A stretch of DNA of 64,000 bases from assembly GCA_964036665.1 (NCBI GenBank), contig OZ038529.1:1798001-1862000 (forward strand), written 5' to 3'. Every line of letters begins with the position of its first letter. The stretch's first letter is position 1. The notes beneath the pieces were generated by a model that was not told where the DNA came from, searched no databases, and saw nothing but the letters and a program-made list of their open reading frames with translations. This DNA is from Gordius sp. MW1 (Eukaryota > Nematomorpha > Gordioida > Gordea > Gordiidae). A program made the position numbers and the translations under genes. Positions 2,894-60,113 of the stretch are shown piece after piece.

Positions 2894-2901
2894 CCACCTA
2901 C

Positions 2902-20319: not shown

Positions 20320-22563
20320 TTAAGGCCGTTTTCCAGGATCTCCTGGGTTAGCCTGTTTTCCCCTAATGCATTTCCTCCATTTTATCCGATCATGCGAATC
20401 CTGTTTTGTCAGACCCATTGCTTCCATGTCGGTAGCTAGAACAGAGGCCCATGTTGATTTCGGCCTCCCGCGCGGTTTCTTTCCAGATACCTCCAGGGAA
20501 GTACATCTCTTCACCCAGTCGTCGTCATTCTTCCGCTCCACATGTCCAAACCATCTTAGCCTGTTTTTCCGGATGACCTCGTTGATTGGCTCGATCCCGA
20601 TTTTTTCTCTGAGTCTATTGCTTGTTATTCTTTCCCGTAGCGACACGTTTGACATCCATCTTATCATACGCATTTCTGTGCTTTCCAATTTGGCTTTATG
20701 TATCGACATTAAAGGCCACGTTTCGCTTCCATATACAAGACAACTTCTAATACATGCCGCGTAGACTTTACCCTTTAAAGTGAGTGAAACACCTTTTCCG
20801 GTCAAAAGAGGGGCCATCTCTCTAAACTTCTTCCAGGCTTGTCGTATCCTTGCTGTAACTGCCGAGTCAACATTCTTATCTGCACTTAAAGAGTCCCCGA
20901 GATAGGTAAAGGTGTTAACTTTTCCTAGCGTCTCCCCATTACCGATGTTAAAGTCGGTTATGGCATTATCCGGTAGAGGTCCTGTCACGCAGGGCTTGCA
21001 GCTAAAAGTACGGCTTGCCAATAAAAGACTTCCTTTCACACCGCTACATTTTTTGTGAACCCATCCTAGGCATTTTGTACATTGTATAGAGTTGCTAGCC
21101 ACTCCTTTGTGACATACGCTACAGGGCCAGGCGCAAGTTGTCTCGGCGCTCTTCGTACTTTTCCCGCCAAACATCACCTTTGTTTTTCCCATGTTAACTT
21201 TTAAGCCCTTTTTCTCCATTCCGTTTTTCCATTTTTGTATCTTTTTAAAGAGATCAGCCTCACTCTCAGCCATTATCAAGAGATCATCGGCGTATAAAAG
21301 TTCCCATGGAAGTCCATCTCGCAGTTCTTTTGTCACCACCTCCATTACGAGTATGAAAAGTAGGGGGCTTAAAACGGAACCTTGGTGTAGCCCAACCTTC
21401 ACTTCAAAGCTTTCGCTATCGCCATCGTGGGTCCTCACTGCTGTTTGAGATTCGTCATACATAACCATCACAGCCGTAACCAACCATTCTTCCACACCTG
21501 TTTTCCTAAGAGCCCATTTTACAACTTCCCGCGGCACCCGATCGAACGCTTTCTCTAGGTCTACGAAGGCGTAGTATAGTCTTTTCCCTTTTGCTTGGTG
21601 TTTTTCTTGCATCTGTCGTACTATAAAGATGGCATCGGTGGTCCCTTTCCCTGGTTTAAATCCGAACTGGATAGCGTCGATGTTCGTTTGTTCCCGGATT
21701 CTTTTCTCGAGCACCCTCTCTATAACTTTCATAGTTTGGTCGAGGAGCTTAATAGCCCGATATGATCCGCAGTCAAGTGGGTCGCCTTTTCCTTTGTAGA
21801 TTGGTAGAAGAACGCTCTTTTTCCAATCGCTAGGTATAGTCCCTTCCTGAATTATGGCATTACACAGCTGTGTAAGCCAAACGACTCCCAAATGTCCAGA
21901 AGCTTTTACCATCTCCGCCACTATTCCTGTTGGGCCTGCCGCTTTACCTTGTTTCGTTTTCTTTATGGCACGCTGAATTTCGTCAGTCCCAATCCAGCAG
22001 CAGGGTCCCTCCACTTTATCACAAACAACGTCATTGTCCCAGGTATTCTCTTCGTTTAAGAGTCGTTTCATATAGTCTTCCCAAACTTTTTTGATTCCAT
22101 CGCCATGGGAGATGATGTTACCCGCCGGCGTTTTAACGCATTTAGTCGCCACAACATCGAGTCGTTCTTTCGCCATTTGTTTGGCTACACGAAACATGTT
22201 TTTCTTCCCTTCCTCTGAGTCAAGGCGTAGAGCAAACTCGCATCTTTTTGTTTCCTTTATTCTGGCGACGGTCCTTCTTGCAATTCTTTTAGCCTCTTGA
22301 TACATAACCTTATCGCACCTTTGTTGAGATTCATGCACTTTATAGCAACGCCTTTTATCTTCGATAGCTTTAGCCGCCTCAGAGTTCCACCACCAAGTTT
22401 CCTTATGTCTTGGGGGCCCCTTTGTCCAACCACACACGCGCGAAGTTGTGTCAAGCCAAGCATTCTTCATAGCCGTCCATTTGTCGTTTACGTTCTTCGC
22501 CATCTCCACTGAGGTTCCATCAAGTGCTTCGGCAAAATCCCTCTTTTGAGTATCATCTTTCAA
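20320..22563 (-). CDS. Reverse transcriptase domain of the non-LTR retrotransposon, with PHD-like finger
   Basis: 747 codons, open throughout. Reverse transcriptase blocks run from about residue 200 (GPTGIVAEMV) through YAFVDLEKAFD (about 331-341), LHQGSVLSPLLF and the catalytic YADD at 424-427. Between palm and thumb lies a cysteine/histidine module (C481, C484, C495, C498, H503, C506, C522, C525) spaced like a PHD finger. The C-terminal part has a conserved WFGHVER motif typical of this element class. The first Met (MKDD...) is an artefact of the upstream frameshift, not a natural start. Confidence 0.88.
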   Translation of the reverse strand: MKDDTQKRDFAEALDGTSVEMAKNVNDKWTAMKNAWLDTTSRVCGWTKGPPRHKETWWWNSEAAKAIEDKRRCYKVHESQQRCDKVMYQEAKRIARRTVARIKETKRCEFALRLDSEEGKKNMFRVAKQMAKERLDVVATKCVKTPAGNIISHGDGIKKVWEDYMKRLLNEENTWDNDVVCDKVEGPCCWIGTDEIQRAIKKTKQGKAAGPTGIVAEMVKASGHLGVVWLTQLCNAIIQEGTIPSDWKKSVLLPIYKGKGDPLDCGSYRAIKLLDQTMKVIERVLEKRIREQTNIDAIQFGFKPGKGTTDAIFIVRQMQEKHQAKGKRLYYAFVDLEKAFDRVPREVVKWALRKTGVEEWLVTAVMVMYDESQTAVRTHDGDSESFEVKVGLHQGSVLSPLLFILVMEVVTKELRDGLPWELLYADDLLIMAESEADLFKKIQKWKNGMEKKGLKVNMGKTKVMFGGKSTKSAETTCAWPCSVCHKGVASNSIQCTKCLGWVHKKCSGVKGSLLLASRTFSCKPCVTGPLPDNAITDFNIGNGETLGKVNTFTYLGDSLSADKNVDSAVTARIRQAWKKFREMAPLLTGKGVSLTLKGKVYAACIRSCLVYGSETWPLMSIHKAKLESTEMRMIRWMSNVSLRERITSNRLREKIGIEPINEVIRKNRLRWFGHVERKNDDDWVKRCTSLEVSGKKPRGRPKSTWASVLATDMEAMGLTKQDSHDRIKWRKCIRGKQANPGDPGKRP

Positions 22564-23527
22564 ACACCACCTTGAGTCTCGGGATATAGCGTTTCTTTGG
22601 ATTTATAAGCCCCTTCATTACGAGATCCCCAACAATAAGACGGTGTTGTGTCACGCATTCTTCCCCAGGGACAACCTTGACGTTTTTCACCATACATCTG
22701 TCCGATTTTTCGACCATCATATAATCGACAGTACTTTTGAGGGTGCCCGATTCATAGGTTATAAGCTTCCTGTCTTCTTTCTTGAAGAAAGTATTGCATA
22801 TAACCATCTGAGTAGCGTCCCCAAAATCCAGAATGCGTTCCCCCTCCGTGTTCCTGGTTCCGTAGCTGTGACCACCATGGACACCCTCATAACCATCGAT
22901 ATTCGCGCCAACATGTCCGTTTAGATCCCCGCCTAAAATAATAGATTCTTGAAGGTGGGAAGTAATTTCCATCAGACGATCCCAGAAAATGTCTTTTTCT
23001 TCATCGCTTCTTCCTACTTGAGGGGCGTAGGCCGATATAACGTTGAAAAGCCTTTCTCCCATCGCCATCTTTATAACTATAATCCGGTCATTCCATCGCT
23101 TGACATCGATAACTTTGTCCACCCATTTCTCAGCGACAAGTATTCCTATACCAGCTTTTCCATCCTTGTGCCCTTGCCAGTAGAATTTATACCGCGCACC
23201 AATGGCTCCCATCATCCTAGCACCCTCTCCTTTCCACCTTGTCTCCTGTATGCAGCATATATCTATCCTTCTCCGATTGAGTGCTTCCACTACCTCGCCC
23301 GCTCTTCCCGTCATGCTCCCTATGTTCCAGGTTGCAACCCTTAGGGTGTAGCCTTTAGACCGGCCTCCTCGAATATTTTCAGGTCGATGACCATCATTAG
23401 GAGGGAATCCTTGCGGAGTTCCCAAAACGATTTGGCCAGGATCCTCATCTTTCTTTTTGACGTAGGTCGATGAGTTAACCCACGGGGTACTTAGGGCTGT
23501 ACCCCGCCCATTCGCCTTTGTATTCAT
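22553..23527 (-). CDS. APE-type endonuclease domain of the non-LTR retrotransposon
   Basis: 324 codons. The apurinic-endonuclease-like fold is visible as RVATWNIGSMTG, then the catalytic-Glu motif CCIQETRWKG, then ILGGDLNGHVG and the C-terminal STVDYMM ... QHRLIVGD (a histidine motif in the position of SDH). In this family the enzyme nicks target DNA for target-primed reverse transcription and is normally fused to the reverse transcriptase. Here the frame ends in a stop that overlaps the start of the downstream frame by 11 bp, consistent with one small indel near 22555-22565 splitting an originally single ORF. Confidence 0.88.
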   Translation of the reverse strand: MNTKANGRGTALSTPWVNSSTYVKKKDEDPGQIVLGTPQGFPPNDGHRPENIRGGRSKGYTLRVATWNIGSMTGRAGEVVEALNRRRIDICCIQETRWKGEGARMMGAIGARYKFYWQGHKDGKAGIGILVAEKWVDKVIDVKRWNDRIIVIKMAMGERLFNVISAYAPQVGRSDEEKDIFWDRLMEITSHLQESIILGGDLNGHVGANIDGYEGVHGGHSYGTRNTEGERILDFGDATQMVICNTFFKKEDRKLITYESGTLKSTVDYMMVEKSDRCMVKNVKVVPGEECVTQHRLIVGDLVMKGLINPKKRYIPRLKVVFER

Positions 23528-23950
23528 AGGGGGAGATTGGAGCAGGTTTTACAGCCGGATGCCCTTCCTGGCGCCAACCTCTTCGTCGGTTTGTACGATT
23601 CGCGAGGAGCGGAGATCCTATTCTGACCCCAGATCACAGGGGTTTGAGTCGTTTTCCTTAGAGGGTGAGTTCTAAAGGACCATTCTTTTGAAACCTTTCC
23701 ATATAAACGAATCCACATATAGAAAGGTATGAGCCGTGTCACTTTAACATTTTCAGCAGTCTTTCTGAGTAACACGGACCGTTTCTCCTTTAGCCAGATA
23801 TTAGGATCTGTTGTCCCCCCTGCACGACGAGGACGTAGGAGAGCAGTGGTTTATTTCATTATTAAGCGAAAAAACGAATAATAAATGTTAGTTTTAAAAG
23901 TTGTGCTTATCTAGCTGCGCGAGCCCATTATAATTTGAATAATCCGGCGA

Positions 23951-24204: not shown

Positions 24205-27200
24205 CTAGTGTAGTAGTTTATAGCGCCAATGCACGTGCCTTCCTCTCGATGTGATGTATTGGTTTTCTTTTGATTTTGTTAGGTCTGGGTCGGAGTTAGC
24301 TGGTCCGGCGATGTCGTCGGAGGGACAAACTTTGGGTGGATTTACATTTTCAGTAGCCGTAAGCGGCTCAGTTGAAGTATCTAAATATGCAGGTTTCAAT
24401 CGCTCGATCGAAACTGAGTCAGCTTTTCCGTTTTTTTCAATAATAAAATATTTAGCATGTTTGGACTTTACTCTGAACGGGCCGTCATATGGTGGCACCA
24501 AACTTTTTCGAACGAAATCATTACGGATAAAAACGTATTTACAGTCCTTAAGAAGTGAAGTTGTACTCGCATTTGTCAATTGTGTCCTGACTTTTTTAAA
24601 AGGTAAATGGTAAAAATGTTGTTTTAGGCATTTAATGAATTCGGAGGCGTTATGAGGTGTTCTTGAGTTCGTAAAAAATTCGCCGGGAAGTCTAAGTGTA
24701 GTGCCATAAACTAATTCGGCTGGAGTGCAACCTAAGTCTTCCTTGATTGTGGTTCGAATGCCAAGCAAAATTAATGGTAAGAGCTCATCCCATTTGTTTG
24801 TGTCACCTTGTGCCATCAAGGAACTTTTCAACTGTCGATGAAATCTCTCAATCATGCCGTTGGCTTGTGGATGATAGGCAGTGGTTGTGATGTGATTTAC
24901 ACCAAGGAGTTGCGTGAGATTCCGAAATAATTGGGACTCAAACTGGGGACCTCTATCTGTTGTGAGGCTTGATGGTACTCCGAGGTCAGCTATCCAATAC
25001 TTGATCAGAGCTTTTGCAACCGTTTGGGCTGAGGTGTCACGGATCGGCATGGCCACAGGCCATCGTGTGAAACGGTCAATAATGGTAAGTAAGTGGGTAT
25101 ATCCATTCGACGGTGGTAGTGGACCAACGAGATCGACGTGGATGTGGCTAAATCGAGCGTCAGGTTCAGCAAATGTGCCTAAAGGGGCTTTTATGTGACG
25201 ATGAATCTTCGATTTTTGGCAAGCAACGCATGATTTGGCCCATTTCCATACATCCTTATTGATGGAGGGCCAAACATATCGACGTGAAATCAGCTTAAGT
25301 GTTGCACGCGTGCCAGGGTGTGATAAGTTGTGGAAGTTATCAAAAATTACGCGTCTGAGTGAAGTTGGAACAAGTGGTCGAGGTGAGGTTGTGGACATGT
25401 CGCATTGCACGGTCAAATCAGAGCCAGGTATAGGAAGTTGCGTTAATTTTAGGGACTTTAGGTCCTGAAATGCCGACTTTTCTTCCATCTGAGCCAAAGC
25501 TAACCTTTCTACTAGGGGCCTGTCTTTAAAATCAACGGAATCAATTTCAGACCTTGAGAGGGTGTCAGCGACTACATTTGATTTGCCAGCTATATATTGG
25601 AGATCGGTAGTATATTGCGAAATATAGTCTAACTGTCTAATCTCCCGCGGGGAGTATTTGTCGATAGGTGTACTGAAAGCATAAGTTAGTGGCTTGTGGT
25701 CTGTATAAATAGTGAATTCATGACCTTCTAAAAAATGGCGGTAATGGCGGATTGTTAAATATATTGCTAATAATTCGCGACCGAATGCACTGTATCGTTG
25801 TTGAGTTTTTGTTAGCTTTTGGGAAAAAAAGGCCAAAGGCAGCGTATTACCGTTAGATGTTTGATGTAATACGGCTCCTACAGCTGAGTTGGAGGCGTCG
25901 GTGGTGATTGAGAGTTGAGCGTCTTTTTGAAGATGGGAGAGAGGCACGACATTGCTTAAAGCGAGTTTGGCGTTGTTAAAAGCAGTCGAAGCTTCCGGGG
26001 TGCAGGAAATTGTCTTCTTTGAACCGTCGAGCAAATCGGTGAGAGGTTTGAGTAAATCGGCACACATCGGAATAAACCGTCTATAAAAATTAATCATCCC
26101 TAAGAAGCGTCTCAACTGAGTCATCGAAGTAGGCTGTGGGAAATTGAGGATTGCTTCCACCTTGTCCTGAAGGGGTGACAAACCTTGAGGGGTGATTTTG
26201 TGTCCCAAAAAATTAATTTCGTTTTGACACCATACGCATTTATCCTGACTGATTTTAATACCGAAAGACTTGAGTCTTTCAAAAACCAGTCTAATATGAT
26301 TGTGGTGTTCATCAATGGAAGAACTCGCGATGAGTACGTCGTCAAGGTAAACAAAAACAAAATCAAGTTCTCTAAAAACTTGGTCCATAAAGCGTTGAAA
26401 CGTCTGGGCAGCGTTGCGAAGGCCAAATGGCATGCGAAGAAATTCAAAAAGACCGAACGGGGTTGTGATGGCGGTTTTAGAAATATCCTCGGGGGCCATT
26501 GGAATTTGGTGGTATGCCCTGACTAAGTCGATCTTTGAGAATACCGTTTTATTGCAAAGGGTCAGCGCAAAATCATGGAGGTGGGGAAGGGGATAACAGT
26601 CGGGAATTGTACGACTGTTGAGCATGCGATAGTCGCCACAAGGTCTCCAATCTCCCGCGGCCTTCTTGGGTACCATGTGCAGGGGTGAGGACCAGTCACT
26701 GTTAGAGGGACGGATTATACCAAGTTCGAGCATGTGAGTAAATTCGTCTCGGGCAATCTTAAGCTTGTCCGGGAAGAGTCTCCTTGGTTTTGAGCGAACC
26801 GGGGGGCCGTTGGTGTGGATATGGTGTTGAGTGCTATGAGTTACTTGAGTCTTATAATCAGAAGGGGACACTATGGAGGCATACTTCTGAAGTAGTGATT
26901 TGATGGGGGAGGTGCCAATTATCCCAACTTGTATGTTGATTGACGTAGCGAATGTAGCCTTGCCTGCAGATGTTAATGTCGTTTGAGTGTCGAAAAGCTG
27001 CTTCTTTTTTATATCAACTACTAGATGGTAGTGATTAAGAAAATCGGCTCCGATGATTGGCTGTTTAACGTCTGCTATTGTAAAAATCCATCTAAATTCT
27101 TTGCGTAGGCCGAGGTCCAAAGTGAAAAGCTTTTGGCCGTATGTTTTGATAGGGGTAGAATTGGCGGCCTGAAGTTGCACATATGAAGGGGTCAAGGAAT

Positions 27201-27324
27201 GGTCTCGAGAAGGCGGAATAACGGAAATTTCTGCGCCTGTGTCAATGAGAAATCGCTGACCCGTGGATTTGTCGAATATGTAAAATAGGCGACTAAGTTT
27301 TAGACCAAGTCCAGGCGTCGCCAT
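24205..27324 (-). CDS. Gypsy pol polyprotein (protease, RT, RNase H, integrase)
   Basis: 1039 codons, uninterrupted. Aspartic protease [10 protein letters not shown] with catalytic D28. Reverse transcriptase from about 180, with [12 protein letters not shown] and catalytic YLDD at 326-329. RNase H with [13 protein letters not shown] and [10 protein letters not shown]. Integrase has an H-H-C-C zinc module (HLSHPGTR ... CVACQKSK) and DDE residues in [19 protein letters not shown] and MIERFHRQL. The order PR-RT-RH-IN is that of Ty3/gypsy. The frame opens 14 bp after the gag stop in a different frame, so expression would need recoding or reinitiation. No internal stop suggests recent insertion. 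Confidence 0.93.
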
Positions 27325-27338
27325 CCCTGGGTGGTCTA

Positions 27339-28133
27339 CTAGTTTGTCGAGGAGGGGTTAAATGCGCAAGGTTGCACGCATTTGAGCGCCTTGTCTTTAA
27401 AGCGGTAATGGTACCAACAAAGTATATTTGGTTGAATATGCGCGCTAGGGTGGCGAACGGTAGAGGGATTGCGGCGTCTCGAGTTGGAACGATCACGTGG
27501 CCTATTGATTGAGATTTTTAAATTTTGTACCTCCTGTGTGAGTTTTGCAATCATCTCCCTAAGCCGAGTCGATTCATCTTCCGTGACTACATTTACAATT
27601 GGACATGTGGAGTTGTGGTAGGTCTCTACAATTTTGTCCGCAGTTTCGGCCAATTTGGAGAGGGACTGCTCGTCAGAAACAATTGCCAAAATGCCGGTCA
27701 TGTTTTTTGGAAGTTTTTCTAACCAAAGTTCTTTAAGAACTCGTTCATCCATGGAATTCGTTCCCAGAAGATTTTTCATGAAACGCAGAAGCTGGGATGG
27801 GGTGCGATCTCCTAATTCGACAGTTGTGAGAAGAGCACGAAGTCTAGCAGAATCGGATTGGCTAGTGCGGTCTATGATGGCTGCTTTCATGGTTGTATAG
27901 GGTAAAATGTCGGGCATATTTTGTAGGATATCTTGAATTTCGATGGTTATTTCCAGTGGCAAGGCTTCTATTAAGTACCCAACTTTGGTAGCTTCGCTTT
28001 TTATCTTTCTTACCAAGAAAAGAGCCTCTATTTGGATGAACCATGAGCGGGGGTTTATATTGTTAAACTGTGGCAGTTTAAAATATGTGGCATTTTCGCT
28101 TTTAACCTCCATATCAGATGGTTGCGTGGACAT
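27339..28133 (-). CDS. Gypsy gag protein
   Basis: 264 codons starting 5 bp after the primer-binding site. The N-terminal two thirds has the capsid-like composition of the CsRn1/Kabuki gag ([25 protein letters not shown]). The C-terminus has a basic stretch and a zinc-knuckle-like CWYHYRF ... CVQPC, the CHCC arrangement described for this clade rather than the usual CCHC. The protein packages element RNA in particles. The frame is intact. Confidence 0.85.
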
Positions 28134-39300: not shown

Positions 39301-42300
39301 TTAATATCATTCATTATTATTTTAGAAAATAATTAAAAAGATAATAGTAACCCCGGGCTACGACTAGCTCCGGTCTCCCCTATTACTTTTTTCTCTTTAA
39401 ATTTATAGAGGCAATTACGTTTATGGAGGCAATCATATTTTCGGGGTCAGCTATAGTCCTGAGGATCAGAGAAATTTGTAGGGCGTTACTAAGTTCGGGG
39501 TCAGGGTCGCAAATCATTTGTTCGATGAGGAGATTGAGGAAATACGTACTTTCGTCTGCGTTGTTCTCGCATTCCTTCAGGATGTATTCGCGAATTTGAG
39601 AGGGGCTGAACTCCACCAAATACCAAACGATATCCACTATGGCATTTCGCGTTACTTCATCATCCGAAGGCTTACGAAAAACGTTAAATGAGCTTAGAAA
39701 ACGCTAAAACACGTGTGTAGAAGCCGAAAGAAGGGAAAATAGTAGATATTTAATAAATATTAAAATTAATATTTTAGCTGATTTAAAATTACCAAAACGT
39801 TCTCCAAAGCCGAGAGGATGCCCCGATTTAAGATAGTTTTCAAGAAGGTATCCCTACTTTGGGTTTGCAAAGTTTGAGAGAAGGTGCAAAATTCCTTGAG
39901 AAAACTAATCAAACTACGCCTTTGCTCGATAGTACTATCCTCGCTGACGAGACGGGTGAATAGTTCTTTGAGCAATGGTTCATCTTCTTGAATTTGATTT
40001 ACGATTTCGAGCTTGTTAAAGAAGATAAAAGAGGTCAGCGAAGATAGGACGTTCTCTTCGAATAGGCTAGGCTGGGGGAAGATGACGTCTTGGATGTATT
40101 GTAACCGATAGGTTTGGTGTATTTTGCGAAGTACTTCGGGGTTTGTTATGGGTACCGCTTGACGAAAAACGGCTTCCTTCAACACGTATTCCCTGTGACG
40201 ACGCCTTACACCTCCACCCACCTTCGGACTAGAGTCTGAAGATGTAACCACGGATTCGATATCGGAATTAGTGCTTATTTCGAGAGCGGCGTTGTCGCTC
40301 GACGCCGTAGCCGAAATAAGAGCGGTGGAAGAGCTTATTTCTGACGTTTGAGTAACGCTCGCCGCTCCTTGGTCTACGTCCATGGGTGTGAGAGAGGTGA
40401 GGTCGTTTGACGCCGATAAGACGCTCGGATCGTATTCCAAACAGCCGATGACGTCAACTATGGCGTCGTCAGATACGAGCAATTCGAGTACGGCGTTACG
40501 ATTCAGGAGAAATAGATTTTTGAGGATTTGATACATGTGATGCAAGCCTTCGGTATGCTCCAAATCCTCGCAAGTCCGAAATAGTTGTAGCAGCTGAGGC
40601 ACGTAGGCTTGAGCTTCTAGCGCCGACGCTAAACGCTCACGCCTATTAGCCTGAGCTATGCCAGTTCCCAGCCCACCGAAACCGCTCACGTGTTCCGCTA
40701 TAACGTCCGCTATTTGAGGCAAATGACTCAAGTCGCAGGGGGGCAAGAGGGAAGGGTTTGAGGTGTTGGGGAGCGTTGTAGCGTTGTAAAAGTAATCTTT
40801 ACCGGAGGAGGAGGGAGCGGAGGAGCGTTCTATGTAGGAATTGAAAGCTGCAGCGCTAGAAGGGATGTCGTAGGTTAGGGAGGATGACGCCGCAGTGACG
40901 CTGCTACACAAACTTATGCGCGCGTCAGCTTCGGCGTCGAGCGCTGCCATAAAATCGTCGTCTTCGTCGGCGTCATGAGCGTCAGCGTCGTAAGTAGGAG
41001 AGGGGTCAGCGTTACAGACGCCATTTTCGTAGGGAAAATCGAGAGGGGTGGTCTCTTCTTTGCGCTGCTTCTTCCACGCTCGAGCGTTGTGAGCGCTAGC
41101 GCTTTTACGCGGAGTGTCAGGGCGTTTTTTAGCGCTAGCGCCTACGGCCAGCTCTCTTTTAGGCGACACACCTACATCTCCCCCACCACCCAGACCCGTT
41201 TTATCGACGTTATTCGCTAATTCATCTTCCGCAAACATATCGGCTAGAAAAACGAAATCGATAATATAAACTAAAGATTCACAATTAATCCATCGAAGAT
41301 TTATATCTTTAATGGTTTAGATTTGAAATTTTTATTGGAATCAGACCCAAAACCTTTTATATAATTGTGGAATATAAACTAAAAGTTTAGCTTATCAGTT
41401 TGGACATAAAATTATTGATATTTTAGAAATACGCTCTCTCTCCCAAATTACACGTTTAAACTAGGATAAAAACTTTTAAAAACTACAAAAAAATTAAAAT
41501 GTTCTCAATACCAAGTCATATGCACAAAATAAAAAGATTCAAATTTTAACCAAATTATAAAATATTTTAAAAATTTAAAGTCAATATTTATGGAGACTAC
41601 ACTGCTTAAGGTGCTCAATATTACATTTGTTGTGGTCATCTTTACCGTTTTCGGTTTCAAGTTCGTCATCTTCATAATCGTCTAAAATGGCGTCGGGATC
41701 TTTGCCCTGTACCTAATGACAAAATAACTCGGATTTTTAAAATCAATTTAAAAATTTTAAATTTATATAAATTTATGAAGCAAATTTTAATTAAATATAA
41801 AAGTATTAAAAATAAATGAAGGTGAGTAAAATAAAATATAAATTAAATTTTTTCAATTTTATATAAAATTATATGAATTTTAATTTTTTCTAAATAGCAA
41901 ATTTATCCTCTGCTTTGAAATATTGGGGGCTATCAAAAAAAGATGCATTTCAACAATTTTAAATAAAAACTTTTGTGTTTTTTTAAATATCAACTATTTA
42001 ATTAAGGATGATATATCAGGTGACTAACAATTACTATAAACAAAAATATAATATTTACTATCCTATAAATGTAATGTTACAAGCAGAGGCCTAAATGCTC
42101 AGTTACTTAAGTAACATAATTTAGGTTAATAGTTATAATAGATCTTCATAGCTTTAAATATTAGATCATTGATTCTTTCAAGTAATTTCTATATGTAATA
42201 ATGTGATATTTTACTTAGAGAAAAAGTGTAAAATTCAAACATGAATTATTAAAAAGAAGGATCCAATTATTTTTAAATTTTAAACAGCCTTTGAGCTAAT

Positions 42301-48396: not shown

Positions 48397-49176
48397 CTAC
48401 ATGAGTAGTCCTACGTGATTGATCTGATCCGTCTCAAGGTATTTTGGATCTGGCAGTCTCGACAATGCATCATCGCATTGATTGTTCTTTCCTGATCGGT
48501 ATTTTATGTCGTATTGATATCCATTTAAAAATAAAGCCCACCGAATTAATCTATTATTGATCACGTTCGGTAAATCCCGTTGGTTTCCGAGTAATCTTTC
48601 TAGAGGTTTGTGATCCGTCATCAATACAAATTTTCGACCACGTACGTATTGATCAAATTTTTGAACACCGAACACAATGGCTCGCGCTTCCCGATCACTT
48701 GTAGAGTATCGTTTTTCGGACTCGCTTAACGTCCTAGATGCGTACGCAATAGCTCTTTCGGACCCGTCTGCATATAAGTGTGATAGTACAGCACCTACAC
48801 CAGTTTCAGAAGCATCTACCGCTAGGTATAACGGCAATGAGGTTGAATACGGTACCAATGTATTGAACGTTGAAAGCATCAGTTTAACATCGTTAAAAAT
48901 CTTCTGCTCTTTAGTCGTCCATTTCCAACCTATTGATGAGCCCGTCAATGCATGCAAGGGTGCGCATTTTTCGTGTAACATTGGGATGAACCTTTCCTGA
49001 TAATTAACTAGTCCTAAAAAGGAACGTAGTTCTTTTTTGTTTTGTGGTTTTTTGAAATTAACAATGTCTTCCACTCGCTCTTGAGTCGGGTGGATCCCTG
49101 TTGCATCGATCACATGTCCCAAGTGTTTAACTAAATTTTGGAAAAATTAAACCTTTTCCTTCTTTGCTTTTAGACC
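48397..49176 (-). pseudogene. Gypsy element 2 pol, RT thumb and RNase H
   Basis: A minus-strand frame of 241 codons (49122-48397) with RSFLGLVNYQERFIP, AVDASETGVGAVL, YASRTLSESEKRYS and MTDHKPLERLLG, the RNase H of a Ty3/gypsy pol. An in-frame stop separates it from the RT end just upstream (49123-49176). It continues from 50981 once the hAT insertion at 49185-50972 is removed. No integrase follows. Confidence 0.88.
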
Positions 49177-49184
49177 AGCGTCCT

Positions 49185-50972
49185 TAGTGTTGCGATCTCG
49201 TCTCATCTCGGTCTCGAAAGCAAAATCTCGTCTCGTATCGGGTGCGATTATTAAAATCTCGATCTCGTCTCGGCCTAAAAAAATCTCGATCTCGTCTCGT
49301 CTTGACGAGAATTCTCGTCTCGTCTCGACTTTTAATAATAATTATAATTTATTTTTTTGTGACTCTTATAAATTATTATATAAGATATAAATTGATCATA
49401 ATGGAACCAATTTTTTATCTCAAACCCCAAAACACAAGCTAAATGAGTATCTTAAAGTAGGAAACATTAATGGAGGTGTTATATACTCTTGGCTCTAATG
49501 TATAAAGTTGCTAAACAATAATCTTTATTTACTGATTAAGGCTAAAAAAAGGATGAAGTTTAATAATATTATCATATCTTAACATAATGAATTTATGAGA
49601 TCTTATATGATAACGTTAAAATAATGACAAAAATGCGAGAGTAAACTTTTGAAAATATTATTATTAATTATAACAAGTATCTGAACATTGTAAATACAAT
49701 AAAATAGGCATTTTTGTTGGAAGAATACAAACGTTTTGAGATTTTACGTTAATTGTACATATATAATTTAATTAAAGTTGTTAAATATAAAAATTTTATT
49801 TTGTGACATCCCATTATATATAACAAAATATTACTTAATCCATTTATTATTCATTTTTGGATAAAATAATTACTTACTAATCAAACTTTTGTTCATATAT
49901 TTTAACTTTTTGATAAATTGCAGCACTTTGCAAAGAATTCAGTGAATTTGAATGCATCTGCCAAGCCCACATTTTGACTTAAATAGTTATGAATGCAATG
50001 GGTTGAAAATTGTTGAGGTGTGCCATGATTTTAGGCATAGCAAGCCCCTGGCAGATTCATGAGTTAATCTATTAGGATGATTTCGAATAGTCAGAGACGC
50101 CTTCGAAAACAATCTTTCGGCAGGCACCGAGGTCGCCGGAGTGCTCGGAAAATCACTAGCCATTGCTGCAAAATTGGGATCATTATATTTGTTAATCAAC
50201 TAATTACATATACATTATTCTTTAATCATTTATGAAGAATATGTTTGATATATAATAGTGTTAAACGCTAGATTTTTAAAGCTTCTAGGTTGGCTGAAAA
50301 AATGTTTTTGGGCAGTTTAATTCCCTATTAACTTAAGTAGGGTAAAGGTTATAGTAATCCTTATGATGGTAACGTTTAAGATGTCGTTTAAGACTTGAAG
50401 TATAGCTCTCAGTCATTTTTACTGCTTTAAAGCACAATTTAAACTTCCCCATTTTTTTATTCATCCTTGAATATTGTGAAATGTTTGAGCAGCTTGGTCT
50501 TTTTTGAGTTGGATGATGAACTCGTTGCGCATAAACTCATTATAGGTCTAAATTTTTATATTATAAAAGCTATACAAATAAGTAACATATACCTAATTAA
50601 TTACTCGAATACCCTAAGGGCTACTAACACAAGTGTTGTCTATTTAATAATATTATATTACAAATTTGAAATTTGCGCGAAGAGGATAATTAGGTGCGTA
50701 AGTAAATTAATATCAAAAATTTGAAAATCATATTAATTTGCATTTAATATCCTAAATTTAAATCTCATTATAAAAACTCTTAGTTAGCTAAATTAAAAGT
50801 TAATACTTAATAGGTAAAATTAAAAATTAAAGTCGAGATCTCGCTGATAAAATCTCGTCTCGTCTCGAGGTCAAAACTCTCGTCTCGATCTCGACTCAAT
50901 TTTTCTAAATCTCGTCTCGTCTCGATTTTTCGAGACGAGACCGAGATTTTTCTCGGTTTTTCCGCATCACTA
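49185..50972 (-). mobile_element. hAT element, 1788 bp, inserted in gypsy RT with perfect 8-bp duplication
   Basis: Identical AGCGTCCT flanks (49177-49184 and 50973-50980). Ends are TAGTGTTGCG and CGCATCACTA. Each end has a dense CTCGTCTCG / TCTCGATCTCG subterminal array (49194-49330, 50830-50960). The interior is AT-rich with only a C-terminal transposase remnant in the minus orientation. Confidence 0.93.
49987..50199 (-). pseudogene. hAT transposase C-terminal domain remnant
   Basis: 70 codons with FPSTPATSVPAERLFSKA ... RLTHESARGLLCLKSW, the conserved hAT dimerisation segment. The rest of the transposase is not readable in any frame. The sequence differs clearly from the remnant at 46786, so the two come from distinct hAT families. 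Confidence 0.8.
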
Positions 50973-50980
50973 AGCGTCCT

Positions 50981-52163
50981 GTACCCTCTTTAGTACTTCG
51001 TTCAGATTTTGCAAGTGGTCATTTTCATTTACCCCTGTAACTATAACTATGATATCGTCTAGAAGTACGCCGGTATGGGGAATCCCATCTAATAATTCTT
51101 CCATATAACGTTGGAATAAATTTGGTGCTATTGAAAGTCCAAATGGAAGACGCTTATATCGATAATAACCTAAATGTGTTGCGATAGTGAGATACTGTCG
51201 CGACTTTTCTTCGACCTTCATCTGAAGATAGGCATCACGTAAGTCAATTACTGTATATTTCTGCCCTCCTGCGATCTTCAGAATTAAATCGTCAAATGTA
51301 GGAAGTAGGTTGTTTAAAGTTAGGAAGGGATTGATAGTAACTCGAAAATCGACGCAGATTCTAATGGAATTATTTGATTTTAATACATTTACTATTGGAG
51401 TTGCCCATGTTATTGGTGTTGCTGCAGGATCAACATGTTCAATTATATCTTCGTCCAATAATCTATTATTTCCTCTTCAACTTTATTCCTTAAAGGAAAA
51501 GGTTCGTGCAGGAAATGCTATGGCTTTGGCTTCTTCCTTTAGAAAAAGATTTACCTCATAATCTTTAATACAGCCAGTGCCATCATTGAACACATTGCTA
51601 TACTTTTCAACCAATTCCTCTTCTATGTTTTGAGGTTTTTCTTCTATAGCATTAATCTTAACTTGATGAGGAAGTTTTAGGTTGAAAGCTTGCAACCAAT
51701 TTAACCTAAAGATGGTTTAAATTTACATAGACTTGTGTTTCTCCACATATAGGAACTGGATTATTTCCAAAAGCTTTTATTTTGGGGCATGTTAATTGAG
51801 GTGTATTTAAAATGTTGTAGATATTCTTGTTGATTACAGATACGGATGAGCCAGTATCATATAACATTTTGAAAATTTCCTGATTTATCCTTACATGTAT
51901 GTATGGTTTAAGGTGAGTTACATTATTTAAGTCATAAATTTTTCCAAGTGTATTAATTATCTGGTTTACTTTGTTTGAGTTTTGCACATTTTTGCAAAGT
52001 GTTCTCTATGACATATGGAACATTCTTTTAAAAATGCTGGACATTGCTTCATTGCATGTGACTTACCACATCTATAGAAATTCCTTATGAATGATTGTTG
52101 ATGTTCATCCTTTTTTGTAGCAAATTGTTTTATTGATTGCCTATTTTTTTGATTTGAGTACAT
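50981..52163 (-). pseudogene. Gypsy element 2 gag end, protease and RT, broken
   Basis: Minus-strand fragments in order. 52163-51966 carries zinc knuckles (the first lacks its leading Cys: FYRCGKSHAMKQC, then CSICHREHFAKMC). 51987-51706 is a protease with LYDTGSSVSVI. 51695-51483 is a linker, and 51458-50970 is RT with YTVIDLRDAYLQM and an altered catalytic VLLDD in place of YLDD. Several frame changes show it is dead. The RT end QDA is cut by the hAT target site. Confidence 0.88.
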
Positions 52164-52610: not shown

Positions 52611-53775
52611 TGTCGGTCCTCCCCCAAAAAGGGAGGACGAATTTTTGTTCCCTTTTAATTTCTACCGACTAATCTTTATTTAATATCACATCAGAAATAA
52701 AATAATAATTATTCTACGAGCGATTTCGAGGTTGTCAAATATATTTGCTAAATCATATTAATAAAATAACGATCTTAATTCAATATAATAATAAACCATA
52801 ACGCGATGGTATTAAAATCGCTCGCTCGAGATGGGTAATAAAATCTCTATTTATCCTAGTGGTAAAAGCCAATCGAAAAGATAATTAAAACAAGTAAGCG
52901 GGTGGGGGGGGGGAACAAATAACGAAAAACAAATCAGCTAATAAAACCAACGTGGAACACCACACTCAGATATATTTTTTTTCTTTAAATTTTTATTTTT
53001 TTTGTCCCGAGAAAAATGCAACCGTGAATAAAAGATTAGAATATATATTATCGCGATACCTACACGCGGACGCGGACCATTCTTTTTTTTTAAATAGATC
53101 CTGAATTACTCGGACGTTATAGTGAAATAAATTTGAATACGGATAATTTTATCGCTGAAATTAAAATTAAGAAATAAATTAATTTATGGGGATAATTTTT
53201 TGCAATATCGTTACGTCCTAGTTCGACAATTTCGTCGACCCTCCCCCTTTATCGAAAAGACCAAGACTTAATAATCATTTCATTTAGAGGTCGAGGCGGC
53301 GATTTACCTTTTCTATTTTTATCAAAGTCCAAACAATCCATAGGTAAAACTTACAATTTGATCATCTGTTTAGCTAAATAATTTTCAAACATCTAATATA
53401 ATTTTTCGCCTGACATATAGTACCAGATATTTGCCTTTGCCCACGGATCGACTGATTCCTGGACAGCGGATTTAATCGATTAAATCTTTCACTGTGAATC
53501 AGCGATAAAAAGGGGACGTCATGTCTAGCGGACTTTTAGTCCCAGCACTATGACTCACCGAGCAACAGCCTCAACAAAAATTATAATTAATTTATACTGA
53601 ATTTTTTTTTTTTTTTAATAATATCTTTTATTAAATGAAACTATATACTACAATAAAATTATATGCTAGGTAAACATTCAAAAATTGCGATCGCGTTGAA
53701 ATGACAAATTATAATTCCGATTTTCTGTTTTAAAAAAAAAGTTTCCCTTTTGTCAAGGGTATTGGCAGCTATACG

Positions 53776-53825
53776 GCGCCCCAATTCTTTCAGGAGGGCT
53801 TGGGTTTTAGGACCTATTGTTGTAA
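53776..53825. repeat. 50-bp inverted duplicate of 56700-56749 (left copy)
   Basis: Begins GCGCCCCAATTCTTTCAGGA and ends ATTGTTGTAA; one mismatch in 50 to the reverse complement of the right copy. In element orientation it is the end of the RT ORF and the first 3' UTR bases. Confidence 0.92.
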
Positions 53826-54034
53826 AATAGTAAATTTAAAGCAAACAGAGGGCAAAGGGTTTATTTTTTCTAACCTTTACCAAGCCTTTACGCCTATCAA
53901 AGGCAAAAAAAACCATTTAACAATATCTCCTAACAGTTATTTCCATGACAATCCAACTGTTGAATACCAAACATCAAAATAGCTGCCATTTTACTCTACT
54001 AAAGGTTTATCCCAAATATCCATAATCCTTCTAC

Positions 54035-56717
54035 ATGAACAACACAAACTCCACAACCCAAACCGGAATCTGCCCAGTCTGCTACAGGTTAGCTTCAATT
54101 ACCCTCTCTAATTTTATTTACGTTCACGGTCCATTAAAACAGAGGTGCCCAGGCCCTGGAAAACATCCAGCAGCTACAGTCCCCAAGAGGTCTACCTCTA
54201 CTCACAACCATTTATTGCATAATACCTACTCCCCGCTCACACCACCACCAATACATATTCAGACATTCCTCATTCTCCTGTTAATAGGATTCTAAAAAAC
54301 ATCCCTAAAGGTGCCAGACATCAAGTTCTAATTGCCCTTACTGATGCCATCTCAAACCTCTCTTAGGACCCAAGCAGCACCCTTCATTGGGCCAACCTTT
54401 TCAATTTACTTCCCGTGTCCTTTCAATACCACCATCAAATTACAAAGGTACCCTCTCGAATTGGGTTAAACAAAACTCAGCAAAATGGGACGTTTCATCA
54501 CCCCCCATTATCTACGAGCCACACATCCATAAGATTACATCAGTTCAACAAAGAGCCAAACGGGTTTCCTCAAAACTCAACCACTTTGACATCCAGGGTG
54601 CCCTTCGCCTGGCCAATGCAGACTGCAAAATTTCCCCAGACACTCAAGAAACCTTCGAATCTTTACAAACTAAACACACTGAAAGAAATTGCTCCCAATT
54701 TCCCCCTACAATCAACTCCCCCTTCAAGGACTTCACATCGCCCGAAATTCTCGGTCCGAAATTCTCGAGGCTATCGGTTCTTTTAAAAAATCCTCAGTAG
54801 GTTCTGGTTTAGACGGCTTCCGTGCTTCACATTTAATAGAATTAACAAGACCTCACATTGACAGGTCTGGCCACTTCACATCCACCCTAGCAACCTTCCT
54901 TAACCAGGTTATTAAAGGCTTAGTACCTGACGCGATCTCTCCCTATTTTTTTGGGGCCACCTTAATATCTCTTACCAAACCTGATGGTGGCCTTCGTCCA
55001 ATTGCCATGGGTTCAATTTTTAGACGCATATGCTGCAAACTTATCATTGCACGAGTAAAATCCGACATGCAGATCAATTAGCTCCTATCCAACTAGGTTT
55101 CGGAACCAAGGGTGGTTGTGAAATCGCCTCTCACGCTGTTCGCATAGCCCTAGCCCATCCCGATTATTCGATCCTAGCTAAGATTGACTTCAAAAACGCA
55201 TTTAACACGATCTACAGGTCACACTTCTTAACCGAGGCTTACAAATCTCTTCCCGAGTACTCCATTTTCCTTAACGCATGCTACGCTCCTACTTCCATGC
55301 TCAACTTTAATTCCAAAATAATTGCATCGAGTGACGGCATTCAACAAGGAGACCCGTTAGGCCCCCTACTATTCTGCCTAGGTATAAAATCCCTGACTGA
55401 CGACCTAGCCTCTAAATATCATCTATCACTCAACTTGTGGTACCTAGACGATGGTACCATCAAGGGAAATGCCGAAGACGTCAAAGAAGCCCTCTCTTAT
55501 CTAGAAGTCGAGGCTTCAAAAATTGGTCTCCATCTAAATCATAGCAAGACCGAGGTTTGCAAAAACAATACTGACTCTTTAAGCCTAGACCCATACTTTG
55601 ACGCTTTCAAACATATTCACCCTAACGAACTAACGCACTTAGGATCTCCCGTAGGTGGCTCACACCCTTGTAACAAGTCATTAACAGAGACAATACAAAA
55701 ACTAGTAGAAATCAAACCCCTCCTTTCTTACTTGCCAGCCCACCAGGCTTTTTTTTTTAATTAAAAACTGCTATTCTTTACCTAAGATAAATCATATCTT
55801 CAGGTCATCCACCTCATTTTTAAATCCTAATGCTCTATCTATATTCGACCAAAAACTCAAAGAGTCGAGGAAATCACAAACCTTTCTTTTACAGGGTCCC
55901 AATGGAAACAAGCGTGTCTCCCCACAAAATATGGTGGTTTGGGCCTGAGATCCCCCCCTCTAGTAGCTTTGTCGGCCTTCATCACGAGTCGACTTCAGCC
56001 AAACCAATCATCGACAAAATAATCGATCAACCAGATCCCTTTACCCAAATCGCTCTCGACATGTGGAGCTCTTTGTCCGACCCTAACACTCCATTCCCTA
56101 CCATAAACTCTCAAAAAAGTTGGAACACTCCTCTCTACGACCATGCCCTTAAAACTCTTATATCGGGCGCTTCGTAGGAGGAGTTACCAGCTTTAAGAAG
56201 TTTTGCATCAAGGTCCGGCCACGAGTGTTTAGAGGCCATCCCAAGTCGGACCCATGACCTTCAACTCTCCAACAACGAGTTCAGGATCGCAACAGGGCTC
56301 CGCCTAGGTTGTGATATAGTTGTCCCCCATCAATGCAACTTATGTGGCTCATCTGTAGGTACAAAAGGTCATCACGGCCTACATTGCGAATTTAATAAGG
56401 CCAGATTTTTACGTCACACATCTGTTAATGCTCTTCTACAGAAGACATTCAATAAGGCTGGCTTTCCCTCCCAATTGGAGCCTAATGGTCTTTGCCTTAG
56501 CGACAAGAAGAGACCCGATGGACAGACCCTCATCCCATGGGCAAAAGGGCTATGCCTAGCATGGGACTACACTTGTCCGGATGCCTTTGCACCCTCAAAC
56601 CAAAACAAAGACCCCCTTGTCGATTCTGAAAGAATAAAGTCAGCTAAATACGCAGAACTATTCCTCACTCCTTTTCTGCCCTATAGTGACCACTACCCTT
56701 ACAACAATAGGTCCTAA
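54035..56717 (+). pseudogene. Reverse transcriptase with C-terminal restriction-like endonuclease, frameshifted
   Basis: Plus-strand pieces in several frames. 54035-54295 has an N-terminal zinc-finger-like CPVC ... H ... C. 54387-54800 and 54689-55081 follow, the latter with GSGLDGFRASHL, PYFFGATLISL and DGGLRPIAMGS. 55030-55764 has QLGFGTKGGCE, LAKIDFKNAFNTI, QQGDPLGPLLFCL and WYLDDG as the catalytic box. The end (about 56226-56717) has CNLC ... HGLHC and KRPDGQTLIPW ... WDYTCPD, a zinc knuckle plus PD-(D/E)xK-type endonuclease as in R2/R4/NeSL/Hero-like elements. At least three frame changes and a stop near 55764 make it non-functional. The exact clade is not determined. Confidence 0.82.
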
Positions 56718-56749
56718 AACCTAAGCCCTCCTGAAAGAATTGGGGCGCT
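56700..56749. repeat. 50-bp inverted duplicate of 53776-53825 (right copy)
   Basis: Begins TTACAACAATAGGTCCTAAA, including the RT stop TAA, and ends AATTGGGGCGC two bases before the 16-bp target duplication. Confidence 0.92.
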
Positions 56750-57270
56750 GTAATTTATACTGAATTATCACAAAGGCTTTACAAATTATCATTTCTCTCG
56801 CCGCCCCTTTCTGATTTTATAAAAGCATTAATTATTATGAGCAGACCGTCAAATAATAGTAAAGAAAACGCGATGGGGGCGGGGGGAGGGGTTGAGTATA
56901 GGTTAACAACATAATTTTCGTAAACATCTTTTTTTAAGTGGTTACAACTGAATCAAAAATGTTTTAAATAATTTTAAGTATGTAAATAATTCAAGTGGGT
57001 TACATTTTATATTTGTTTACTGAATTCTACTTTGTTTTCGGTGGGTTTAAGAACTTTTCATTCGTTGAGTTTTGCCATTTGTTTCCAGATAACTCTGATG
57101 TTAGGTTGTCGCGGTATGGTTTGTTGCCAACTGTTCGGAATATTGAGGAATTGTTTTCTTTCTTCGTTTTCTTGTGAATTAAAGCACGGATCAGTTTTTC
57201 GAATAATCGGCTTAATATTAGATGGGTATTTGCCTTTTGAGGGCGTGGGTTCAGATCCACGATTCTGACA

Positions 57271-57770
57271 CTAATTGTTAAATTCGAAATTGTTGATAAT
57301 ATATAATATATATCTCTTCAACTGTTTAAATTTTAATGGTATAACCAAAAATGCAATATACGTCTACGAGGTGCCATTGCCGTTATTAAATGATCAATTT
57401 TTATTTAAACAATGGCGCTATATTTTCACATCCTTACACTTGTTTACTTATTATAGAAGTTTCATCTTAAGTAGACCTCTAAAAATTCTAGATTGAGCCA
57501 AAGCAGCGTTTGACCGATTGTAGATAGCATAATTTAATAATATATAAAGTCAAGTGAATTAGAACGTAGCCAAATTTAAATAATACTCTTTAAAAGTATT
57601 CAAGAACATAATTATAAGGACGAACAATAGACAATTTACTATGCTAAATTTACAGACTGCCTATTTTCACCCGACGATCATTTGCACCCTATTTAATAAC
57701 CTTCGTATTTAAATATTAATTATTTCCGCTAACTCATCTATCCATCATCAACAAACATCTGTAAAGTGAG
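57271..57770. other. Intergenic/5' region of the P5B ATPase gene
   Basis: AT-rich, with no promoter element recognised. The gypsy LTR ends 500 bp before the first Met. Confidence 0.4.
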
Positions 57771-59870
57771 TTGCCGCATGACAGTTTAATAAAATTCTGG
57801 ATTCAATATATGAACTATTCATTCAAGCTATCTTCCGATGACCAAAACATTCATATTATTGATTATGGAACCGAAAACCAAATCGAAGCTTACCCTTATA
57901 AGAAAAATACTCTTAAAAGATTATGTGCCCTGTTTCTGACCTTCATATCTTTCGGTGTTGTGGGTTTGCTTTTTCACTGGAAGCGTCATTGGTTTATTAA
58001 ATTTACTTGTGACAAAGGTTCTATAGACAATTGTGATTTGTTGATTATTATTGATAAACACCAAATAAAATCTATCTCCTACATTAAATACATCAAAGCT
58101 GCAGATTTGGAAAATGAATATTCCAAAGGAATTTATCTACAAGTCCCAGATATTGGTGGAAGATTTTATCATGAAAAGATTGTCAAATATTTTGATCACC
58201 ATAAAAATATATATATATGGCGTGGTCACCAACGAGGTTTCACCAATCTAAATGAATTTGAGAAAGATATAAATTGTTCATACTTTTACAAGCAAAAACC
58301 TCTTTCAAAGGAAGATCAGGAAAAAAGGAGAATTTTTTTTGGGTCAAATGATATTAAAGTTAAAGTTAGACCTATCTACAAAATATTGTTCTATGAAGTT
58401 TTAACCCCTTTTTACATATTTCAAATATTCAGTGTCATCTTGTGGTTTAATGATGACTACGAACTTTATGCCAGTTGTATATTGATTATATCTCTAATAT
58501 CGTTGACTCAAAGTACTTATGAAATCAAGAAAGATCAACTTGCTCTCCACAACCTATCTAAGATGATTGACATAGTTACAGTGTACAGGAATGAAAATAT
58601 TTCTGAAGAAATTCCATCTGTTGAATTGGTACCAGGTGACATAATCAAAATTCCACCCAAAGGTTGCCTTATGACATGTGATGCCATCGTCTTAAATGGT
58701 AGTTGTATCGTAAACGAAAGCATGCTAACGGGTGAAAGTATACCAGTCACTAAAACTCCACTACCAAATGTAACTCATTCCAATACTTGTGATTACGTAT
58801 TTGAAAGGAAAAAACAATTCAAACATTTGCTTTACTGCGGAACTCAAGTTATACAAGCCCGTTACTACGGCACGGAATGTACTAAAGCCATAGTGTTGAG
58901 TACGGGTTTTAATACCATAAAAGGTGATATCATACGATCTATCCTATTCCCTAAACCGTCCGAATTCAATTTTAACCAGGATAGCTATAAATTCATAGCA
59001 GCCCTGTTTGGTTTATCCATCATAGGTTTCACGTACAGTGCAGTACTCAAGATCATGAATAACGTCTCGGTCAGACTCATAATATTAAGGTCCATCGATT
59101 TGGTTACCATAGTGGTGCCCCCTGCTTTGCCAGCAGCCATGACTATTGGTATAGTGTTTGCCAAGAGTAGGTTAAAGAGGTACAACATATTTTGCATTAG
59201 TCCCAACCACATAAACGTATGTGGAGTGATTGATCTCATGTGTTTTGATAAAACCGGTACCCTCACCGAAGATGGGCTAGACATTTGGGGCATAGTACCT
59301 TATGTTACGGGTCAAAAGTCTTTTAGCCAAACCACGGGAGATGGTCGTTCCTTGGATATGGGACCACTTGTGTACTGTATGGCATCTTGTCATTCCCTAA
59401 CTACCATAGAAGGAGAACTGATTGGTGATCCCTTGGACATAAAAATGTTTCAATCCACGGGCTGGCACTTGAAAGAGCCATCGGTAGATGATTCCGAAAA
59501 GTATGACATGCTAGTGCCTACCATAGTACAACCACCGGCAGCCATTACGAGTGTACCTTCCCAACAGGGTGTCGGCCATCTTGAGGGAGTTTCCCCGTAC
59601 GAAATAGGGATCATTAGGCAATTCCCATTTCTATCCGTCTTTCAACGTATGAGCGTTATTATATACAGACTAGAAGCTAAGGAATACGAAATATACTGCA
59701 AAGGCTCACCCGAAAAGATTGCTTCTCTGTGTACACCCTCTAGCCTCCCACCAAACTTTTACTCTGACCTCATGGCTTATACGGAAAAAGGTTTTAGAGT
59801 GATCGCTTTAGCTCACAAAACCCTACCCAACCTAAAATGGGCCAAAATTCAGAGGATCAATAGGGATCAA
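57771..59870 (+). CDS. P5B-type ATPase, ATP13A2/3 family, 5' exon (partial gene)
   Basis: Exactly 700 codons to a phase-0 donor (CAA|GTGAGA at 59871); frames beyond it read into the intron. Residues 36-100 match the P5B N-terminal region with an N-terminal membrane-associated hydrophobic segment (about 50-68). Two membrane segments follow near 205-245. Then come the actuator motif TGES (320-323), a membrane segment with the P5B signature PPALP (450-454), the phosphorylation site DKTGTLTE (D493) and a nucleotide-binding KGSPE near 650. ATP13A proteins are late-endosomal/lysosomal polyamine transporters. Missing are the rest of the P domain (TGDN box) and the C-terminal membrane helices. These may lie beyond the window, since no matching exon is visible up to 64000. 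Start: Met1 at 57771, or Met14 at 57810. Confidence 0.93.
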
Positions 59871-60113
59871 GTGAGATTTTTTTGCATTACACTTACAATA
59901 TTATGTGCTATGCAATTTATGGACTGTGTTTTTGGTTGTCTGACTTGTCCTGTCCAATATTTAAGTATCTTTTGGAAGTCTCATTACTTTTTTACTATAT
60001 TATAATTGAAAACGTGGTGTTTTGCGAATTTTTTACCCCATTCAAAAACTAGAGTTAAAGCTATTTTTGAGATGGTATATAATAGTATTTAAACGTATAT
60101 ACCTTTGTGTTGT
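59871..60113 (+). other. Start of P5B ATPase intron with GCTATGCAATTTATGG repeat
   Basis: Begins GTGAGATTTTTTTGC. A copy of the dispersed repeat core TGCTATGCAATTTATGGACT lies about 35 bp in, followed by GTTGTCTGACTTGTCCTGTCC, similar to the repeat end at 9868-9960. Confidence 0.6.

Follow-up and report, generated by a model that had tools for sequence, protein, structure and literature searches.

A stretch of 64,000 nt from the genome of the nematomorph Gordius sp. MW1 (assembly GCA_964036665.1, contig OZ038529.1, positions 1,798,001 to 1,862,000; referred to here as the window) was shown to contain, at window positions 53588–56767, what is very probably a single 5'-inverted (i.e. twin-primed) insertion of a poly(A)-tailed non-long terminal repeat (non-LTR) retrotransposon, which imitates a terminal inverted repeat (TIR) element. 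The window copy by itself represents a known type of accident; in the family to which it belongs, such accidents recur, favour a place near the 3' end of the RNA and duplicate sequence rather than delete it.

Anatomy and target site of the insertion

The insertion is enclosed by a perfect direct repeat of a 16-bp target sequence, TAATTTATACTGAATT (left copy, 53588–53603; right copy, 56751–56766). On the left, a run of 15 T residues (53602–53616, minus strand), the first two of which are common with the duplication, represents the complement of a poly(A) tail, in the position at which poly(A) is found in sister copies, and is followed by the complement of AATAAA, as the initial annotation of this region had stated. 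The first cDNA (53604–53825, minus strand) comprises the 3' end of the element, corresponding to positions 2876–3098 of the uninverted copy L010 (3098 nt, the last 15 of which are A), which served as the coordinate reference. This cDNA contains AATAAA together with the last codons, the stop codon and the 3' untranslated region (UTR) of the sister-copy frame, in agreement with the prediction that the inverted left segment includes the stop and 3' UTR of a reverse transcriptase (RT) frame. The second cDNA (53825–56752, plus strand) is a near-complete element body, L010 positions 6–2929, inverted with respect to its own 3' end, and the window copy, expressed in L010 coordinates, consists of body 6–2929 and tail 2876–3098, opposed to each other.

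Positions 2876–2929 occur in both cDNAs in opposite orientation, and this part of the element 3' end is present twice, as had been proposed. The two arms are located at 53772–53825 (left, from the first cDNA) and 56699–56752 (right, from the second cDNA). The inverted repeat previously annotated as 50 bp with one mismatch is real, although its dimensions required revision, as a repeat-finding program measured 54 nt at 96% identity with 2 mismatches. At the inversion junction (53813–53841), ~2 nt (TT) are common to the first and second cDNAs, as judged by eye, while at the second priming point the TA of the right duplication overlaps the element end, representing a 2-nt microhomology. Between the inverted repeats, the RT that had been noted there was recovered in an open stretch on the plus strand (55024–55764; PF00078, E=1.3e-16), though the reading frame of the window copy is broken by stops. 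A further open stretch (56178–56717, plus strand) contains CCHC, KRPD...D and KSAKY motifs and is read as a putative restriction-like endonuclease (RLE).

The flanks of the insertion correspond to an interspersed repeat. Five paralogues of the invaded repeat (L115–L119), picked from the match lists for the flanking repeat, were shown to align through the site with point differences, to carry the 16-bp sequence once and to lack an insert; the direct repeat is therefore a true target-site duplication, and the insertion, its duplication and its empty site were all observed directly. An unrelated insertion of ~38–39 bp, some 10 nt beyond the target site, was present in two of these five paralogues.

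Elsewhere in the genome, copies L056 and L078 are inserted a few bases apart in two copies of another repeat, each providing the empty site of the other; a 10-bp duplication was seen in one of this pair, L078 being without a duplication.

Sister copies

The genome searched comprises 212 Mb, with the window located on contig C3. A search with the insert listed 86 matches, and scoring of 40 out of 629 candidate places gave the long copies designated L009–L048; a further search pointed to 503 candidate places, the family thus comprising several hundred candidate copies. In uninverted copies, three of which were inspected closely, the body (window 53825–56752) is followed by the reverse complement of 53604–53771 and then by poly(A); the order anticipated for an uninverted element, i.e. 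RT frame, 50-bp block, reverse complement of the left segment and poly(A), was found in full. At the 5' end, many copies extend up to 28 nt beyond L010.

A 29-mer spanning the window inversion junction matched one genomic site at up to 3 mismatches, the window itself, as compared with 326 sites for a 30-mer that runs through the window break point in contiguous element sequence, a count to which the tail of the window copy and further inverted copies also contribute. Dispersed copies with the same inverted termini, which the initial annotation had named as the mark of a TIR family, were not encountered among these matches; both the uninverted sister copies and the uniqueness of the junction were directly established.

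Opposed pieces were identified in five members of the 40-copy long set, namely the window copy (L048), L023, L037, L041 and L043. A sixth inverted long copy, L021, is terminated on one side by poly(T) and AAT, its other end having been primed near position 3067. The breakpoints and duplications of the other inversions in the family differ from those of the window. In a shuffle test, 10 long copies out of 40, among them that of the window, had a target duplication that beat the shuffles, as against ~2 expected by chance.

Two side observations concern the element termini. In L035, L036 and L037, the match to the reference begins at ~183–187, with ~495 bp of other sequence at this place in L037 (L037:3492–3985), perhaps an alternative 5' region. 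Among the 3' ends listed, the base pattern at which poly(A) starts differs between copies, one group having TTAGCAA there.

Identity of the element

Among the 40 long sister copies, eight possess a stop-free frame of 937–970 aa. In L010, that frame (937 aa) contains RVT_1 (E=8.1e-19), the sole Pfam family above the cut-off, and no APE (apurinic/apyrimidinic) endonuclease domain was detected in this frame. A PDB sequence search at E≤0.01 returned five matches (best E=1.5e-5), three bearing the name R2 and the other two that of 'reverse transcriptase-like protein', the latter presumably being R2 of Bombyx. The region 3' of the RT exhibits a CX2C...H...C (CCHC) motif in six of seven long frames, and KRPD...D and KSAKY motifs in all seven, which we read as a CCHC plus putative RLE by analogy with the motifs of RLE elements. 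A homology search with the C-terminal 237 aa returned two zinc-finger sequences at E above 1 and nothing else, and a single-sequence fold model of window 56178–56717 had a mean pLDDT (predicted local distance difference test) of 37 and was unusable. The endonuclease named in the initial annotation is thereby retained as putative: its motifs are present, while homology and fold evidence were not obtained.

Judging from the RT match, this poly(A)-tailed non-LTR retrotransposon is related to R2, the candidate clades being R2, BLAG, HERO, R4, NeSL and CRE. Because its insertions are dispersed on contigs C1–C8 with unlike flanks, the element is not confined to the 28S rDNA site; the 28S genes themselves were not located. 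Among the viral and prokaryote contigs searched, no relatives were confirmed.

Frequency of inversion in the family

To avoid selection by body length, 3' ends were located by a 29-mer pattern, which occurs at 166 places, 100 of which were listed. The rate sample consisted of 60 listed 3' ends outside the long-copy set, each with ~600 nt of upstream sequence. The element runs beyond this stretch in 20 cases, and a 5' junction is visible in the remaining 40, seven of which (7/40) carry an inverted second cDNA. In six of these the inverted piece measures at least 20 nt (L056, L065, L069, L090, L097 and L107), and in the seventh, L079, a 14-nt inverted piece is located exactly at the junction; L069 and L097 have no clear target duplication. 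With the addition of 15 listed ends from long copies, 14 of which continue or break outside the 600-nt range and one of which is the window, the rate becomes 8/41, the window being the eighth. Four copies selected for their inverted look (L121, L122, L123 and L126) stand outside this rate, which omits 21 further listed ends. The suggestion that such an inversion is a rarity was consequently not borne out within the family.

Runs of T, from ~10 to at least 35 nt, were also seen at the 5' junction of otherwise uninverted-looking copies (L014, L021, L067 and possibly L011), recalling the L1 5' poly(T) insertions in the account of PMC2837659; the long T run of L067 possibly belongs with the inverted copies.

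Second priming and junction overlap

In eight inverted copies with target duplications of 10–16 bp, the overlap between the duplication and the inverted element was measured with hand-chosen fixed anchors, and amounted to 2 nt in the window, 6 in L023, 1 in L037, 3 in L041, 3 in L107, 2 in L079, 4 in L090 and 5 in L021. Microhomology of at least 1 nt is present in all eight (sum of 26 nt versus 7.1 expected, p=1.7e-5), and was in this set directly established. Outside this set stand L069, for want of a clear duplication, L056 and L065, on account of their poly(T), L043, on account of its priming point, and the copies added afterwards. Reading by eye gave ~3 nt of microhomology in L121 and no clear duplication in L097 and L123, while in L122 the duplication lies inside the aligned stretch. 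The proposal of target-primed insertion followed by a second priming event is backed by the microhomology of these related inverted copies.

The second priming points of 14 events were located at positions 2862, 2929, ~2984, 2990, 3019, 3020, 3021, 3023 (three events), 3028, 3042, 3050 and 3067. Two of these positions required interpretation: the L097 body is interrupted by other sequence after 2742, its priming point being placed at 3019, and the ~2984 of L122 is by reading, its alignment running to 3004. In L056 and L065, second priming occurred within the poly(A). Half of the 14 points fall within 3019–3028, i.e. 56–65 nt upstream of the poly(A) start (p=1e-4 to 2e-4, for a 10-nt width picked post hoc and a null that is uniform over 2860–3083 and ignores base composition). 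The clustering persists at widths of 20 or 40 nt (p=0.004) and in the 60-end sample (4/5, p=0.0014).

Subtraction of the first-cDNA end from the second priming point yielded +54 for the window, +1 for L023, +70 for L037, -4 for each of L041, L079 and L090, +153 for L069, +11 for L097, +39 for L107, +30 for L121, +52 for L122, +20 for L123, +2 for L126 and -13 for L021. Hence, eight of the 14 resolved events exceed a threshold of 10 nt of duplication, with 11–153 nt, and none displays a deletion of more than 15 nt; in addition, L043 duplicates at least 55 nt. Because seven of the 14 points lie within 10 nt and no gap exceeds 15 nt, a fixed geometry can tentatively be entertained, in which a ribonucleoprotein would position RNA 3019–3028 at the second-strand cut, with the first strand extending until it displaces the second cDNA, although we regard such non-random second priming as rather doubtful. 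If true, twin-primed copies would represent a footprint both of the geometry of the complex and of a second-strand cut made while the first cDNA was still unfinished.

Proposed mechanism and alternative explanations

Twin priming would account for the window copy as follows. Viewed on the minus strand, copying from the poly(A) tail would be primed at a nick in the A/T-rich site, with the putative RLE as the presumed nuclease, and synthesis of the first cDNA would proceed for ~208 nt within the element, from position 3083 to 2876. A cut ~16 nt away in the opposite target strand would follow, and both cut DNA ends would start copying what we infer to be a single RNA molecule, leaving most of the element flipped. 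The first cDNA would pass the second priming point by 54 nt, probably by strand displacement, and this stretch would be doubled in the opposite orientation. Joining of the two cDNA ends, with TT in common, and filling in of the 16-bp stagger would then give rise to the target duplication.

The question of one template or two was addressed through subfamily markers. Two subfamilies were distinguished that are linked along the element (e.g. at sites 1563, 1848, 2778 and 3080) without crossing in the copies examined; a 3' indel marker separates them likewise without crossing (22 versus 49 matches, with three more of neither form). In all 12 informative inverted copies (window, L023, L037, L041, L069, L090, L097, L107, L121, L122, L123 and L126), body and tail belong to the same subfamily (p=3e-4 to 8e-4 under random pairing), or in 11 of 12 by site 3080 alone (p=0.004 to 0.009 for at least 11). 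The difference is due to L121, which is discordant at site 3080 and concordant only by the indel marker, read by eye: its tail reads GTATCTATAG, where the subfamily of its body has GTATATATAG and the other subfamily GTAGTATATAG, and the two scripted forms missed this tail. The arms of L056 agree at site 3080, as do those of L065. This agreement between body and tail favours one source RNA for the two cDNAs, subfamily markers resolving the source and not the molecule.

Comparison of the duplicated stretches themselves revealed five differences in 427 positions across eight overlapping copies, four of the alleles being found in no other examined copy and the fifth in 1 of 65. Seven overlaps tested showed no difference at a subfamily site, the arms agreeing at the five subfamily sites covered (p=0.035 against random pairs). 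The overlaps of L121, L123 and L126 (30, 20 and 2 positions, respectively) are free of differences, while the four in that of L122 all lie beyond 2984 and are taken as flank.

Several observations weigh against a twin-primed origin of the window copy. Its junction carries a 54-nt duplication and not a deletion of the L1 type, which needs either a first RT that displaces a strand or a further RNA from the same source. The arms of the window differ at 2 of 54 positions; both differences lie in the body arm and are C-to-T, one being absent from 67 other copies and the other recurring in a single copy of 65, and they look like later mutations, short of proof. The argument for a shared template loses force if the subfamilies were active one at a time. 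Furthermore, many uninverted long copies are without a recognizable target duplication in the shuffle test (10/40 significant), and L126, one of two later junctions read by eye, is without microhomology.

The alternative that survives best, although we assign it a slim chance, is dual priming, in which two element RNAs, one primed on each target strand, are both copied and then joined. Overlaps of 11–153 nt in eight of 14 resolved events are easily produced from two templates, and L056 and L065 carry poly(A)/poly(T) at their two ends, an arrangement for which the pertinent passage of PMC2837659 treats both a twin-priming variant and dual priming. The discordance of L121 at site 3080 also fits two RNAs. 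Conversely, the subfamily agreement of 12/12 body and tail pairs (11/12 by site 3080) and of 2/2 arm pairs, and the absence of any difference at a subfamily site in the seven tested overlaps, argue against independent templates, with the reservation that a protein preference for its own source RNA would give the same subfamily agreement.

A snap-back event, in which the first cDNA folds over at its 3' end and serves as its own template, is conceivable for L056 and L065, the inverted pieces of which are within range of the uninverted tail. It cannot have made the window copy, because the inverted part (6–2929) exceeds the first cDNA (2876–3098) and for the most part was never in it; on these coordinates the explanation was rejected for the window, and its overall probability is very low. 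Equally far-fetched are two independent insertions in opposite orientation, or an ordinary copy that was inverted in the genome afterwards. Copies of the family do rearrange, as exemplified by L097, the inverted body of which is interrupted by other sequence, but in the window one perfect duplication encloses the whole structure, the body is without its own poly(A), microhomology is present at the duplication and the empty site is that of a clean single insertion. An RT-bearing TIR transposon family with genuine inverted termini, suggested by 54-nt inverted ends inside a duplication, was rejected as having next to no probability, since the window junction is found once in the genome, most of the 40 long copies lack inverted ends and the repeat arm comes from within the coding region.

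Comparison with known systems

L1 inversions with a junction duplication are known, and the L1 endonuclease is of the APE type, unlike the present element, in which an APE domain was not detected. Twin priming was reportedly described for human L1 by Ostertag and Kazazian in 2001. In human L1, 639 of 2068 copies are 5'-inverted according to Table 2 of PMC2912911. The insertions described here resemble L1 twin priming, as outlined in the passages of these L1 papers that concern inversion, in their target duplication, poly(A)-bearing 3' piece, inverted 5' piece, second-priming microhomology and frequent occurrence. They differ from the description in the corresponding part of PMC2837659, where twin priming is said to leave an internal deletion, in that the present element duplicates 11–153 nt in eight of 14 events (54 nt in the window); this is taken as a difference from that description and not as an exclusion of twin priming. 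Within the same part of that paper, dual priming by two mRNAs is proposed as an undecided alternative for L1. The L1 5' poly(T) insertions treated there are matched by L056, L065 and L021, which have poly(T) at one end with adjoining element bases, although the element is a different one and L021 retains a near-whole element, including the 5' leader.

With respect to R2 and other RLE-encoding long interspersed nuclear elements (LINEs), as presented in portions of PMC6895275 and PMC2718515, the similarities comprise an RT closest to R2 among solved structures, one long frame and a CCHC motif followed by PD...D, whereas dispersed copies with unlike flanks and a poly(A) tail after AATAAA set the present element apart. 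Insertion without a fixed site is shared with BLAG, which an excerpt of PMC7650587 describes as non-site-specific R2-like elements. Microhomology at R2 5' junctions is mentioned in PMC2718515, in the portion concerned with those junctions, and snap-back cDNA junctions formed by R2 proteins in human cells in the relevant portion of PMC11371274; the latter likewise place inverted element sequence at the 5' junction, unlike the window, where the inverted part is mostly absent from the first cDNA. PMC6895275 treats the RLE, and its passage on twin priming concerns L1. Among the papers listed in the literature search, outside which most subscription papers lie, no report of a twin-primed inversion in an RLE element was seen.

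The second half of LINE integration is called 'very poorly understood' in a passage of PMC6895275. Inverted copies in an R2-related family represent natural snapshots of a top-strand end priming on RNA, and such priming implies that the second cut preceded completion of the first cDNA. The clustered priming points and duplicated overlaps render the geometry of integration testable. For annotation, caution is warranted, as twin-primed copies may pass for RT-bearing TIR elements.

Genomic neighbourhood

The insertion is situated between two host genes, encoding a phosphatase 4 regulatory subunit 3 (39769–41316, minus strand; PF04802, E=1.6e-74) and a P5-type ATPase (57765–60002, plus strand; PF12409 and PF00122). 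The window also contains a second LINE (20323–23548, minus strand), in which one frame encodes an RT (PF00078, E=2.1e-33) and another, upstream of it, contains an endonuclease/exonuclease/phosphatase domain (PF03372, E=8.3e-12). Two LTR-type pol regions were identified on the minus strand, one as a frame with RT, RNase H and integrase domains (24208–27357) and the other with one frame for RNase H and a distinct one for RT (48400–51476). Elsewhere in the assembly, three contigs open with CCCTAA telomere repeats.

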